From Streptomyces mangrovi (GTDB lineage: Bacteria; Actinomycetota; Actinomycetes; Streptomycetales; Streptomycetaceae), in assembly GCF_900114215.1 (NCBI RefSeq), contig NZ_FOSG01000003.1, positions 248,001 to 312,000 on the forward strand: a stretch of 64,000 nucleotides of DNA, given 5' to 3'. The notes beneath the pieces were generated by a model. The model ran no database searches. It worked only from the letters and a program-made list of their open reading frames with translations, and had not been told where the DNA came from. A program made the position numbers and the translations under genes. Positions 5,669 to 63,302 of this stretch are shown in pieces (the stretch's first letter is position 1; each line of letters opens with the position of its first letter).

Positions 5669-5713
5669 CAGAGGGCCGGGCCCGGGATCTTCGATCCCGG
5701 GCCCGGCCCTCTG
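5669..5713. terminator. Bidirectional terminator between ileS and divIVA
   Basis: A perfect 21-bp stem (5669-5689 with 5693-5713) around a TTC loop lies between two converging genes. It can form in RNA from either strand and so may end both ileS and the long division transcript at divIVA. No T-tract follows. Confidence 0.75.
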
Positions 5714-26050: not shown

Positions 26051-27435
26051 TGGACGGCCCCGGCACGGCCGCCCCGGACGCCGGCAGAGGCACGGACGGG
26101 GGCGCGGACGGGGGTCCGTGGGCACAGGAGCGCCGGGGTTCGCTGCGCGCCGCGCTCGCCGGGCTCACCACCCGGGGGCGCTCGTTCCTGGCCGCGGGAG
26201 CGGCCGCGGTGGTGTGCGCCTACGTGCTGGGCCAGGGCGACCTGCTGCGGGTGGGGGTGCTGCTGGCCGCACTGCCCCTGGTCTGCGTGATCGTGCTGTA
26301 CCGCACCCGCCACCGCGTGGCGGTCTCCCGGCGGCTGTCCCCGGCCCGCGTGCCCGCCCGGGAGGAGGCCCTCGTGCACCTGCGGCTGGACAACGTCTCG
26401 CGGCTGCCGACCTCCCTGCTGATGCTCCAGGACCAGGTCCCCTACGTCCTGGGCCCGCGCCCGCGCTTCGTCCTGGACCGGGTGGAGCCGGGCGGCCGGC
26501 GCGAGGTCTCCTACCGGGTCCGCTCCGACCTGCGGGGACGCTATCCGATAGGTCCGCTGCAGCTGCGGCTGACGGATCCGTTCGGCATGGTGGAGCTGAC
26601 CCGGTCCTTCAGCTCCCACGACACCCTCACCGTCGTGCCCCGGACCGAGGAACTGCCCCCCGTACGGCTGGCCGGGGAGGCGGCCGGACTCGGCGAGGGG
26701 CGGCACCGGTCCCTGGCCACGGCCGGCGACGACGACGTGATCCCGCGCGGTTACCGCCACGGCGACGACCTGCGCCGGGTGCACTGGCGCTCCACCGCGC
26801 GCCACGGGGAGCTGATGGTGCGCCGCGAGGAGCAGCCGCAGCGGCCGCGCTGCACCGTGCTGCTGGACACCCGCCGGGCGGCCTGGGCCGGCTCCGGTCC
26901 GGAGTCGGCGTTCGAGTGGGCGGTCTCGGGAGCCGCCTCGGTCGCCGTGCACCTGCTGGAGCGCGGCTACGCGGTACGGCTGCTGACCGACACCGGCGCA
27001 CCGGTGCCCGGACCGGACGGTGCCGGTACCGACATCGCCGCCCTCGACACCGCCGGGCTGCTCCTGGACACCCTCGCGGTGGTGGAGCACTCCGGCGAAC
27101 CGGGCCTGGCGCGGGCGTACGAGGTGCTGCGCGGCGGCAGCGGCGGTGGCGGGCACGAGGGACTGCTGGTGGCCTTCCTCGGTTCGCTGGACGGCGAGCA
27201 GACGGCGCTGGCCGGCCGGATGCGGCAGCGCGCGGGAGGCGCGGTGGCCCTCCTGCCCCGCGGGTTGCGCGAGCCGGCCGCACAGGAGGAGGGGGAGGGG
27301 GAGCGGCTGCTGCGCGAGGCGGGCTGGACGGTGCTGCCGTACGTGCCCGGGGAGGCGCTGCCCGATCTGTGGCGGCAGGCGGACCGGTCCTCGGGCGGGG
27401 CGCCCGGGCGGACGGCGAGGAGCGGAGGACGATGA
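26050..27435 (+). CDS. DUF58 domain protein, membrane-anchored
   Basis: 461 residues. A short Asp/Gly-rich start, two adjacent hydrophobic segments (about 45-63 and 66-83), a beta-rich middle, then the DUF58 signature RGYRHGDDLRRVHWRSTARHG, followed by a von Willebrand-like alpha/beta fold. DUF58 proteins are thought to act with MoxR ATPases; no reaction is known. I took the ATG at 26050, which overlaps the moxR stop (TGATG); a GTG directly before it (26047) is possible. The 3' end overlaps the next gene by 4 bp. Confidence 0.88.
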   Translation: MDGPGTAAPDAGRGTDGGADGGPWAQERRGSLRAALAGLTTRGRSFLAAGAAAVVCAYVLGQGDLLRVGVLLAALPLVCVIVLYRTRHRVAVSRRLSPARVPAREEALVHLRLDNVSRLPTSLLMLQDQVPYVLGPRPRFVLDRVEPGGRREVSYRVRSDLRGRYPIGPLQLRLTDPFGMVELTRSFSSHDTLTVVPRTEELPPVRLAGEAAGLGEGRHRSLATAGDDDVIPRGYRHGDDLRRVHWRSTARHGELMVRREEQPQRPRCTVLLDTRRAAWAGSGPESAFEWAVSGAASVAVHLLERGYAVRLLTDTGAPVPGPDGAGTDIAALDTAGLLLDTLAVVEHSGEPGLARAYEVLRGGSGGGGHEGLLVAFLGSLDGEQTALAGRMRQRAGGAVALLPRGLREPAAQEEGEGERLLREAGWTVLPYVPGEALPDLWRQADRSSGGAPGRTARSGGR

Positions 27436-29783
27436 GCGGACAGGCCCGGCTGGCGTTCTGTGCCTGGGCGGCCACCCTGGCGGCGGCGTGCGCGCTGCTG
27501 CCGCTGGTCGCCCCGGCCGGCTGGCTGTTCCAGGCCGCCCTGCTGCTGGGCGTCCAGAGCGCGGTGGGCGCGGTGGTGCGGCGTACGACACCGGCCGGAC
27601 CGCCGGCGGTGGCGGCGCAGGCGGTGGTGTCGCTGCTGGTGCTCACCTTCGTCTTCGTCCGCGGCGACGCCGTGCTCGGGGTGCTGCCGGGCCCGGACGC
27701 CGTCGAGGCCTTCGGCGCGCTGCTGGCACAGGGCACCGCGGACGTCGGCCGGTACTCCATCCCGGCCCCGGTCACCGACGGCATCCGGCTGCTGCTGGTG
27801 GGCGGCGTGGTCGTCATCGGCCTGCTGGTGGACCTGCTCGCGGTGACGTACCGTGCCGCGGCCCCCGCCGGACTGCCGCTGCTGGGGCTGTCCCCGGAAG
27901 GGGGGAGCCGGCTGTGGTTCCTGTGCGCGGCCGCCGGCTATCTGCTGCTGCTCCTGGCGGAGGGCCGGGACCGGCTGTCGCGGTGGGGCCGGGTGTTCGG
28001 CGGCGGGGCAGGTGCCGCACGGCCCGGCCCCACCGATCCGCCGCCGGTGCGCACCGGGCGGCGGATCGGCGCGGTGGCGCTGGGCATCGCCCTGGTGGTG
28101 CCCGCGGTACTGCCGTCGCTGGGCGGCGGGCTGCTGGACGCCGCGCGCCAGGGGCGGGGCACGGGGGACGGCGGCGGCACGATCTCGGCGGTCAATCCGC
28201 TGGTCGCGCTGCAGGACAGCCTGAACCAGCCGGACAACCGCACGGTGCTGACGTACACCACCGATGCCGGGAGCACCTCGGACATGTATCTGCGGATCGT
28301 GGCGCTGGACCGGTTCGACGGCACGTCCTGGAAGCCCTCGGAGCGCCGGATCACCGATCTTCCGCGACCGCTTCCGCCGGTGCCCGGGCTGTCGCCGTCC
28401 GTCGCCACCGAGCGCGTCACCACCTCGTTCCGGGCCGCCGGCTGGTACGCCCAGAACTGGCTGCCCATGCCGTACCCGGCCGCCGAGGTGCGCATCGACG
28501 GGCGCTGGCGTTTCGAGCCGGAGGGCCGCACGCTCGTCGGCGACCGCGGGCAGACCACCCGGGGCGTGCGGTACGAGGTGGACAGTCTGGTCGTGCGGCC
28601 GACCGCACGGCAGTTGGCGCAGGCCCCGGCGCCCCCGCCGCAGATCATGGAGGAGTACACCGGCGTACCGGATTCGCTGCCGTCCGTGGTGGCCGAGATG
28701 GCGCGGAACGTCACCGAGGGGGCGGCCGGCGACTACGAGCGGGCCGTGAGGCTCCAGGACTGGTTCTCCTCCCAGGGCGGCTTCCGCTACGACACCCAGG
28801 TGAAGGCGGGCAGCGGCAGCGCGGCCATCGCCCGCTTCCTGGAGGACCGGGAGGGCTTCTGCGTCCACTTCGCCTTCTCCATGGCCGCCATGGCCCGCAC
28901 CCTGGACATCCCGGCGCGGGTCGCGGTGGGGTTCACGGCCGGGGCGTCCGACGGCAGCGGCGGGATGACGGTGGGACTGCAGGACGCGCACGCCTGGCCG
29001 GAGCTGTACTTCGAGGGCGTGGGCTGGACCCGCTTCGAGCCCACCCCGAGCCGGGGCAGCGTGCCGGAGTACACCCAGCCCGACCTGCCCTCCCCCGAGC
29101 AGTCGGACGTTCCCGAGCCGCGCCCGGACGACAGCGCGCAGCCTCTTCCGGAGCCCTCGCGGTCCGAGGAGTGCGTCCCGGGGCAGGGCACGGAGGACTG
29201 CGGCGCGGCGGCCCTCCCGCACGGCGGCGAGGCCGCCGGCGGCGGCTTCCCGGTGGGCAGGGCCCTGCTGGTGGCAGCGTCGGTGCTGCTCGCCGCGGGG
29301 ATCCTGGCGCTGCCGGCCCTGTGGCGGAGCAGGGTCCGCCACCGGCGGCTGGGGGGCGGCGGCGGCCCGGGCGTCCGTACGCTCGCCGCCTGGCGGGAGG
29401 CGACCGACTCCGCCTGGGACCTGGGCGTCCTCCCGCAGGAGTCCGCCACCGTGCGGACGGCCGCGGCACGCGTCGTACGGCTGGGGAGGCTGGAGGGCGA
29501 GGCCGCCGGGGCCGTGCACCGGCTGGCCGCGGCGGCCGAGCAGGCGCTCTACGCCCCCGAGCCGCGGTCGGCGCAGGGGCTGGCCGAGGACGTGCGGCTC
29601 ATGCGGGCCGGGCTGTGGGCGGCCGCCGGGCGCGGCGCGCGGCTGCGGGCCCTGCTGCTGCCGCGGTCGGCCGTACGGGCGGTGTGGGCCGTCTCGGAGC
29701 GCTGGTCGGCCTCGGCCGGTCGGTGGAGCGGCTCGGTGCGGCGGGCGCTCGCGCGGGTCAGGCCGTCGCGGCAGCGGGTCTGA
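27432..29783 (+). CDS. TgpA-like transglutaminase-domain membrane protein
   Basis: 783 residues. About six N-terminal membrane helices (DUF3488 type), an extracytoplasmic transglutaminase-core domain with the Cys (C477, EGFCVHFAFSMAAMAR) and His (H520, QDAHAWPELYF), then WTRFEPTPSRG, a Pro/Glu/Ser-rich spacer, one more helix near 610 and a cytoplasmic DUF4129-like tail. The usual third catalytic Asp is not obvious; FEPTP takes its place. Likely function: transamidation or proteolysis outside the membrane, substrate unknown. It is the third gene of the MoxR unit and ends 59 bp before a 58-bp palindrome. Confidence 0.88.
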   Translation: MSGQARLAFCAWAATLAAACALLPLVAPAGWLFQAALLLGVQSAVGAVVRRTTPAGPPAVAAQAVVSLLVLTFVFVRGDAVLGVLPGPDAVEAFGALLAQGTADVGRYSIPAPVTDGIRLLLVGGVVVIGLLVDLLAVTYRAAAPAGLPLLGLSPEGGSRLWFLCAAAGYLLLLLAEGRDRLSRWGRVFGGGAGAARPGPTDPPPVRTGRRIGAVALGIALVVPAVLPSLGGGLLDAARQGRGTGDGGGTISAVNPLVALQDSLNQPDNRTVLTYTTDAGSTSDMYLRIVALDRFDGTSWKPSERRITDLPRPLPPVPGLSPSVATERVTTSFRAAGWYAQNWLPMPYPAAEVRIDGRWRFEPEGRTLVGDRGQTTRGVRYEVDSLVVRPTARQLAQAPAPPPQIMEEYTGVPDSLPSVVAEMARNVTEGAAGDYERAVRLQDWFSSQGGFRYDTQVKAGSGSAAIARFLEDREGFCVHFAFSMAAMARTLDIPARVAVGFTAGASDGSGGMTVGLQDAHAWPELYFEGVGWTRFEPTPSRGSVPEYTQPDLPSPEQSDVPEPRPDDSAQPLPEPSRSEECVPGQGTEDCGAAALPHGGEAAGGGFPVGRALLVAASVLLAAGILALPALWRSRVRHRRLGGGGGPGVRTLAAWREATDSAWDLGVLPQESATVRTAAARVVRLGRLEGEAAGAVHRLAAAAEQALYAPEPRSAQGLAEDVRLMRAGLWAAAGRGARLRALLLPRSAVRAVWAVSERWSASAGRWSGSVRRALARVRPSRQRV

Positions 29784-29842
29784 GGCCCGGGGAGCCGGGA
29801 GGCCGCCTGCCGACGGCCCGCGGAAGGAGGCCTCCCGGGGCG

Positions 29843-29900
29843 CGACAGCGGGCGGCGGGGGAGACCGGGGATCCCCGGTCTCCCCCGCCGCCCGCTGTCG
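29843..29900. terminator. 58-bp perfect palindrome between convergent genes
   Basis: Bases 29843-29871 are the exact complement of 29872-29900: 29 bp per arm and no unpaired centre (AT at the axis). It begins CGACAGCGGGCGGCGG. It lies between the transglutaminase gene (+) and the DUF3040 gene (-) and would fold in RNA from either strand, so I read it as a bidirectional terminator. There is no T-tract. Zero-loop symmetry is unusual even for this DNA. Confidence 0.8.
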
Positions 29901-30021
29901 TCGGTCCTGGCTGACAGGTCGTGCCGGTCGTGCGGAGGGGGCGGTACGGCGGCGCTGTCGGGTCGCGGTGGCCGTGCGCGCCGCCCACCGCCGAAGGCGC
30001 AGGCAGCGCGTGAGCGGACCG

Positions 30022-30432
30022 TTACTGCTGCTCGTCCCGGCGGCGCTGCCAGCGGTCCTCGATACGGTTCATCATCGAGCGGCGCGGCCTGCCCTGCCTT
30101 CGCGGATGCGGACGGCCTCCGGCGTCGTGACCCTGGTCGGCGGAGGGCTGCTCACCCGGCTTGGGAGTCTTGCGCCAGCCCGTCACCGCGAGGACTGCGC
30201 AGCCGAGCATCACCAGGAAGCCCAGCACACTGACGATGACCAGCTTCGCGACCATCCCGGCCATGAGGAGCGCGACGCCCACCAGAAAGCCCGCGACCGC
30301 CTGGTAGACCCGTCGCCGGGTGTACGTGCGCAGCTCGCTTCCCTCGAGCGCTGTCGCGAACTTGGGGTCTTCGGCGTACAGCGCTCGCTCCATCTGCTCG
30401 AGCATCCGCTGCTCGTGCTCAGAGAGCGGCAC
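30022..30432 (-). CDS. DUF3040 small membrane protein
   Basis: 136 residues. The N-terminal MPLSEHEQRMLEQMERALYAEDPKFA is the DUF3040 signature. Two helices follow (about 43-62 and 64-84), then a basic, Arg/Gln-rich tail. The function is unknown; the family is restricted to actinobacteria. The ATG at 30432 has AGGAGGA upstream. A TTTCAC / TATCCT pair with 17-bp spacing (near 30480-30510, minus strand) could be its promoter. Confidence 0.9.
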   Translation of the reverse strand: MPLSEHEQRMLEQMERALYAEDPKFATALEGSELRTYTRRRVYQAVAGFLVGVALLMAGMVAKLVIVSVLGFLVMLGCAVLAVTGWRKTPKPGEQPSADQGHDAGGRPHPRRQGRPRRSMMNRIEDRWQRRRDEQQ

Positions 30433-30655
30433 GGAGTCCTCCTACTCGTCGGTCGCGGGGGCGACCGGATGCGACCCTTCAAGGATAGGCAGGGATTCGC
30501 CCCCGTGAAACCCGCCCCTCTACGCCAGTTCGTGCCACCGGGACCGGGGGCCGGGTGGCGGTGTCGGGCTTCTCATTCCCCCGCCGCCACGCCGTCATGC
30601 CGGTTGGTGTGCTTCGATCATACGGCGGGTAGCCGCCGTTCGGGTCGCCTGTGGC

Positions 30656-36944: not shown

Positions 36945-36990
36945 GGCGTGCGGGCCCCGGCGCCCTGGTGGGCGCCGGGGCCCGCACGCC
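36945..36990 (-). terminator. Perfect hairpin between the Rv2175c-like gene and thiE
   Basis: A 21-bp perfect stem (36945-36965 with 36970-36990) has a TGGT loop. It lies 68 bp past the stop of the DNA-binding protein gene and 21 bp before thiE, both on the minus strand, so it probably insulates thiE from upstream transcription. No T-run follows. Confidence 0.75.
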
Positions 36991-46341: not shown

Positions 46342-46386
46342 GGCGCCGTGGGGCGCGGATCGCTGTGATCCGCGCCCCACGGCGCC
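46342..46386 (-). terminator. Perfect hairpin after the DAHP synthase gene
   Basis: GGCGCCGTGGGGCGCGGATC (46342-46361) pairs exactly with 46367-46386 (20 bp) around a 5-nt loop, 63 bp past the DAHP synthase stop and before the oxidoreductase start. Probably the terminator of the aroH transcript; no T-run. Confidence 0.75.
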
Positions 46387-63254: not shown

Positions 63255-63302
63255 ACCGCCCCGGTCCGGACGGAAGTCCTTCCGTCCGGACCGGGGCGGT
63301 TT
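63255..63302 (+). terminator. Terminator after fadD
   Basis: A perfect 21-bp stem (63255-63275 with 63280-63300) with a GTCC loop, followed by TTT (63300-63302). It lies 57 nt past the stop. It is among the best intrinsic terminator candidates in the window. Confidence 0.8.

Follow-up and report, generated by a model that had tools for sequence, protein, structure and literature searches.

The stretch of Streptomyces mangrovi DNA analysed here (64,000 nucleotides, hereafter the window) carries on its + strand genes matching the Pfam families DUF58 and MoxR-type AAA, ahead of a tgpA-like transglutaminase gene (27369-29783, +; Pfam TgpA_N, Transglut_core and DUF4129). On the - strand, a methyltransferase gene identified by Pfam precedes a DUF3040 gene (30022-30432, -; Pfam PF11239), which is convergent with the tgpA-like gene. 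The two stops are separated by a gap of 238 nt, the gene borders being approximate as they were set by a simple codon-usage script, and this gap contains a 58-bp perfect loopless palindrome (29843-29900, assigned to neither strand). The tgpA-like stop (29783) precedes it by 59 nt, whereas 121 nt separate it from the stop of DUF3040 (30022). An earlier note had placed it exactly between convergent transcripts: the genes do converge, but the palindrome lies off the midpoint. Its description as a 58-bp palindrome with 29 of 29 pairs and no spacer was confirmed twice, by an inverted-repeat search in which the 29-nt arms (29843-29871 and 29872-29900) were 100% complementary with a spacer of 0 nt, and by a separate scan of the whole 64 kb, which recovered it identically as the longest palindrome of the window. 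The chance level was set with the 423-kb contig, the longest arm in five first-order Markov copies of it being 15. A second, imperfect inverted repeat (29795-29838, assigned to neither strand; 18-nt arms, 89% complementary, 8-nt spacer, -33.4 kcal/mol) sits between the tgpA-like stop and the palindrome.

RNA of either strand at 29843-29900 is predicted to fold into a hairpin of 27 pairs with a 4-nt loop (-69 kcal/mol, z -12 relative to 200 shuffles). The 10 nt past the stem include three U on the + strand but lack U altogether on the - strand; a hairpin followed by a U-rich tract, as in canonical intrinsic terminators, is found on neither, and a canonical terminator scan of 29600-30200 called no site. 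Both strands do display the combination that characterizes the bidirectional 3' ends (Bi-TEPs) of S. clavuligerus, namely a long stable stem with a short loop lying in a gap between convergent genes. An Rfam search over 29500-30500 returned seven matches, all to microRNA families and all below the gathering score, which we took as chance hairpin matches and rejected as a family assignment. A search of the genome with 29780-29960, which would overlook diverged copies, recovered among the 40 of 203 candidates scored the site itself on both strands and one 41-nt match of 83% on contig C14. Occurrence elsewhere in the genome had been proposed as a check, and no close second copy was thus detected among these 40 candidates; a REP or other multi-copy palindromic element was rejected on the same result. 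A joined query against this genome and two relatives (G407 and G230) matched only the site in this genome, a result of little weight since it also missed the known G230 ortholog.

The palindrome belongs, as judged by sequence, to a class of repeats found at gene ends. On contigs C20, which carries the window, and C14 of this genome (G000; 819,675 bases in total), we detected 96 inverted repeats with arms of at least 14 nt and loops of at most 10 nt: 43 in convergent gaps, 45 in tandem gaps, one in a divergent gap, six in predicted genes and one at a contig edge. These compartments represent 13.3 kb for convergent, 60.7 kb for tandem and 32.6 kb for divergent gaps, and 713 kb for predicted genes. 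When gaps of about 30 nt or more were counted on the same two contigs, a repeat was present in 38 of the 92 between convergent genes, in 46 of the 309 between tandem genes and in 1 of the 110 between divergent genes. The order of density, convergent above tandem above divergent, was the same in all seven stretches of six genomes (G000, G407, G230, G005, G007 and G013), if only narrowly in G013 (0.52 versus 0.35 per kb). Within the 64-kb window, the next-longest perfect repeats have arms of 20-22 nt and loops of 2-5 nt, and lie in one convergent gap (5669-5713) and in three tandem gaps (36945-36990, 46342-46386 and 63255-63300). Outside the window, a tandem gap of C20 holds a 74-bp perfect loopless palindrome (84944-85017), and the 58-bp palindrome is hence not unique even within its own contig. 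The absence of a loop is itself no rarity, as the 61 repeats with arms of at least 17 nt in these 820 kb include 12 without one. An excess of loopless repeats relative to five other genomes was unsupported both at this arm length (12/61 versus 8/66, Fisher p 0.33) and at arms of at least 14 nt (16/96 versus 14/147, p 0.11). On C14, two long hairpins stand adjacent in a single convergent gap (375384-375435 and 375447-375493); one of them is rich in GC and has no loop, the other has a lower GC content and a loop of 5 nt.

DUF3040 matches were obtained in 40 of the 41 genomes searched, and 140 DUF3040 loci were gathered, of which 128 were kept after dropping one where the gene was not found, four that were too short and seven duplicates. 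Two further loci bearing N in the first 300 nt downstream, including the N-masked L027, were excluded from the hairpin counts, leaving 126. An inverted repeat with arms of at least 12 nt was present within 300 nt downstream of DUF3040 at 90 of these 126 loci and absent at 36; arms reached at least 17 nt at 60 of the 126, and 10 of the 90 hairpin-bearing loci were loopless. Controls gave at most 3 of 128 upstream of DUF3040 and 0 to 2 of 128 in five shuffle sets. The conservation check that had been suggested therefore came out positively, the position of the hairpin being kept in most relatives. Of the 124 loci whose sequence was long enough, 112 had a long opposite-strand open frame ending within 400 nt of the DUF3040 stop; this hints only weakly that relatives usually have the convergent arrangement too, as long frames also arise by chance in GC-rich DNA. 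In other Streptomyces, hairpins at this site often share a GAGGGG core, present at 57 of 91 loci (L027 included), and 36 hand-picked loci align with seven invariant columns; the arms of the window's palindrome lack this core and differ from the common form. In another genome (G024, locus L013), the same site holds a 58-bp loopless palindrome of different sequence, with the centre GGATCC common to both. Among the 36 loci, 13 of 17 pairs had changed on both sides and none on one side only; it is to be noted that this set was hand-picked from 41 named loci, that its arms were required beforehand to be perfect and that G-U pairs are absent from it by construction, so that the covariation table was not used as evidence.

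The closest named record, S. barkulensis (DUF3040 proteins 96% identical), is identical over the 300 nt behind DUF3040 to G407, which is labelled "same species" as the window's genome. G230, the closest outgroup identified (87% identity across 951 bases), carries an orthologous hairpin of 57 bp, its 26-bp arms separated by a loop of 5 nt; it shares the outer nine pairs with the window's hairpin, two further pairs bear clear mirrored substitutions, and the inner stem has been rebuilt symmetrically. The palindrome is absent from the conspecific S. barkulensis record (loci L034 and L115), where the DUF3040-side arm keeps its first 14 nt and the remainder is gone together with flanking bases; the residual sequence folds at -33 kcal/mol, a value reached by 7 of 200 shuffles. 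Because the outgroup G230 has the palindrome, loss in S. barkulensis would be the simpler history, an assembly gap in that record being also possible. In L034, several copies of a short CTGTCACCACGA-like unit stand in tandem past the DUF3040 stop, next to where the palindrome would be expected.

In order to describe how such stems change, we compared orthologous gaps between these genomes, counting only orthologs that contain a stem, which biases the counts toward mirrored (paired) changes. Between C20 and G407, an orthologous gap was available for 35 of 58 stems, with a recognisable homologous stem in 30 and none in five; across 536 stem pairs there were 13 mirrored, 21 one-sided and one unpaired double change, while simple arithmetic from these counts predicts about 0.4 mirrored changes if the two arms changed independently. 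Between C20 and G230 we counted 22 mirrored, 28 one-sided and three unpaired double changes, with 16 of 45 gaps lacking a recognisable stem, and between G407 and G230 there were 23 mirrored and 16 one-sided changes, with 13 of 39 orthologous gaps lacking one. At the 74-bp palindrome of C20:84944-85017, in the window's genome, the right arm copies the whole left arm, whereas the G407 ortholog has most of the left arm with a short and imperfect right arm, and the G230 ortholog is short and imperfect. From this comparison it looks newly completed by copying of one arm onto the other, and a single template switch would be the simplest account, since many separate point changes would otherwise be needed. 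Another repeat, C20:80144-80198, has its centre in inverted orientation in G407, apart from one mismatch. Loop inversion is a footprint described for template switching (PMC8794818), and a systematic count of inverted centres or loops, misses included, gave 1 in 38 repeats between C20 and G407 (core), 0 in 52 between C20 and G230, and one inverted 3-nt loop among 36 repeats between G407 and G230; an inverted 2-nt loop at C20:311255-311300 relative to G407 was seen by eye and missed by this count.

The arm copying and the inverted centre belong to other sites of the genome, and 29843-29900 itself displays only paired changes relative to G230. Template switching at the palindrome is accordingly something we infer from what is seen elsewhere in the genome. 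We also considered whether the long palindromes arose because the SbcCD palindrome nuclease was lost, and set this aside, with no sign of such a loss: the SbcD model scored over its cut-off in the window's genome, the only one searched with it, and SbcC-type matches adjoining SbcD were present in all six genomes searched, all below the model cut-off, as are those of 13 of 14 control genomes. These comparisons bear on two further statements of the earlier note. It had argued that perfection and the missing loop reveal selection, which our counts do not support, given that 12 of 61 long-armed repeats are loopless and that mutation can make perfection, the 74-bp palindrome looking as if completed by arm copying. 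It had also described such sequences as unstable and usually lost. One probable loss, in S. barkulensis, agrees with the first part, but "usually lost" appears overstated at this size, strong palindrome instability in E. coli concerning lengths of roughly 100-150 bp and more.

We further examined mismatches within stems. Counted on the sense strand in tandem gaps, G-U outnumbered A-C mismatches 27 to 13 (binomial p 0.038, uncorrected), versus 18 to 15 in convergent gaps; these figures were obtained after settings were relaxed and three genomes added to a stricter first run, which covered fewer stretches and gave 6 versus 3 in tandem and 10 versus 9 in convergent gaps. Such a pattern would be expected if the transcribed RNA matters, with both strands counting in convergent gaps, and it points weakly to the RNA level.

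Hairpins of this kind, and their likely function, are already known in Streptomyces; the one described here is ordinary in kind and extreme in length. Compared with 3' ends in general, the bidirectional ones mapped by Term-seq in S. clavuligerus show reduced read-through and combine longer stems with shorter loops (PMC8269248). The palindrome resembles these Bi-TEPs in offering one hairpin to opposed transcripts, and in its longer stem, shorter loop and higher folding energy, but the 55 sites reported there (PMC8269248) were measured, whereas the palindrome described here has 29-bp arms without spacer and its 3' ends are predicted. Streptomyces terminators are reported to contain few U, to form the longest and most stable hairpins of the species compared and to covary (PMC12207403), and in S. 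avermitilis about 25% of 3' ends carry a U-rich motif, stem formation being described as the major determinant (PMC8780764). U-poor Streptomyces 3' ends have also been ascribed to Rho or to processing (PMC8780764, PMC12207403). The U-tract-free, I-shaped terminators of GC-rich bacteria (Mitra et al. 2009, cited in PMC8914203) share the stable GC-rich hairpin seen on the - strand but differ from the + strand, which has three U within 10 nt.

Taken with its position and its conservation, this likeness leads us to consider that 29843-29900 is probably a bidirectional 3'-end hairpin or terminator with at most a weak U-tract, which would owe its length and perfection to template switching acting on a selected hairpin; termination, proposed from the start, is still the best guess on the sequence evidence. 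Transcription of the tgpA-like gene (+ strand) and of DUF3040 (- strand) would both end at the palindrome, which would keep either polymerase out of the gene facing it. The 27-bp hairpin, formed in the nascent RNA of either strand, would pause or dissociate RNA polymerase and protect the 3' end, and selection would maintain a strong hairpin at this site. During replication, template switching (quasi-palindrome correction) would copy one arm onto the other in single events, giving the length, the perfect match and the absent loop, so that the sequence would turn over fast and would sometimes be deleted. Template switching combined with selection for a hairpin explains the perfection better than selection for a loopless palindrome would. 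Published template-switch hairpins likewise have perfect stems, simultaneous paired changes and inverted loops, but they concern rRNA and other RNA genes such as microRNAs, in a paper whose main text does not use the word terminator (PMC8794818). A narrow open-library search found no work combining template switching and Streptomyces terminators by title.

Instead of terminating transcription, the hairpin could serve RNA 3'-end processing or protection, as a substrate of RNase III or as a barrier to exonucleases after Rho termination further on. Such a role fits position and conservation equally well; the RNA would be a long perfect duplex, U is absent from the 10 nt that follow the stem on the - strand, Rho is present in the window's genome, and most U-lacking 3' ends of S. 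avermitilis are considered likely to be Rho or processing products (PMC8780764). We nevertheless regard it as unlikely, the lower read-through at bidirectional ends of S. clavuligerus pointing to termination (PMC8269248). Binding of a dimeric protein to the DNA, or formation of a cruciform by it, would account for the perfect dyad symmetry of 29843-29900 and for the return of GGATCC at the centre of the otherwise different G024 palindrome, while the GAGGGG core and the invariant columns might reflect either a sequence-specific role or common descent. This DNA-level explanation appears very improbable: the window's palindrome does not carry that core, its arm sequence varies within its own clade while the symmetry stays, and the long repeats differ from gene to gene, with a single one of the 96 in a divergent, promoter-containing gap.

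Two explanations would deprive the palindrome of any function. Template switching might make and remake palindromes as a purely mutational by-product, with no role at this site, in agreement with the arm copying at the 74-bp palindrome, the inverted centre and the S. barkulensis record without palindrome. It would, however, leave unexplained why repeats lie behind genes and not in divergent gaps, and why a hairpin recurs at one site in 90 of 126 loci, and we grant it very little probability. As the genome is a draft of 56 contigs, an assembly fold-back artefact also comes to mind, and it is the most improbable of all: a separate assembly, G230, has the homologous hairpin with the same outer nine pairs, the flanks are unique and collinear, and similar though shorter repeats occur in long single contigs of G005, G007 and G013. 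Ordinary sequencing reads, moreover, are longer than 58 bp. A bidirectional 3'-end hairpin remains our preferred reading.

Prediction of terminators in GC-rich bacteria is difficult because U-tracts are often absent; long arms that pair downstream of genes, and that are most concentrated in convergent gaps, may allow many terminators to be recognised from sequence alone. The most promising lead is the abundance of very long arms in the window's clade. Repeats with arms of at least 20 nt numbered 18 and 11 in 423 and 396 kb of the two contigs of G000, 13 in 256 kb of G407 and 9 in 400 kb of G230, compared to 3, 0 and 1 in 400 kb each of G005, G007 and G013. This corresponds to 22-51 per Mb versus 7.5, 0 and 2.5 per Mb in the three other Streptomyces, a difference of about three-fold or more among six genomes whose regions were not matched gene by gene and of which the three high ones are near relatives. 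We tentatively propose, as a possibility that falls short of even chances, that in this clade (the window's genome, S. barkulensis and G230) template switching lengthens and symmetrises gene-end hairpins, acting as a mutational engine that refreshes bidirectional terminators. If so, hairpin sequences would change fast while their symmetry stays perfect. Mirrored turnover this fast is in any case natural material for asking whether perfect hairpins originate and persist by selected point changes or by single-step template switching.
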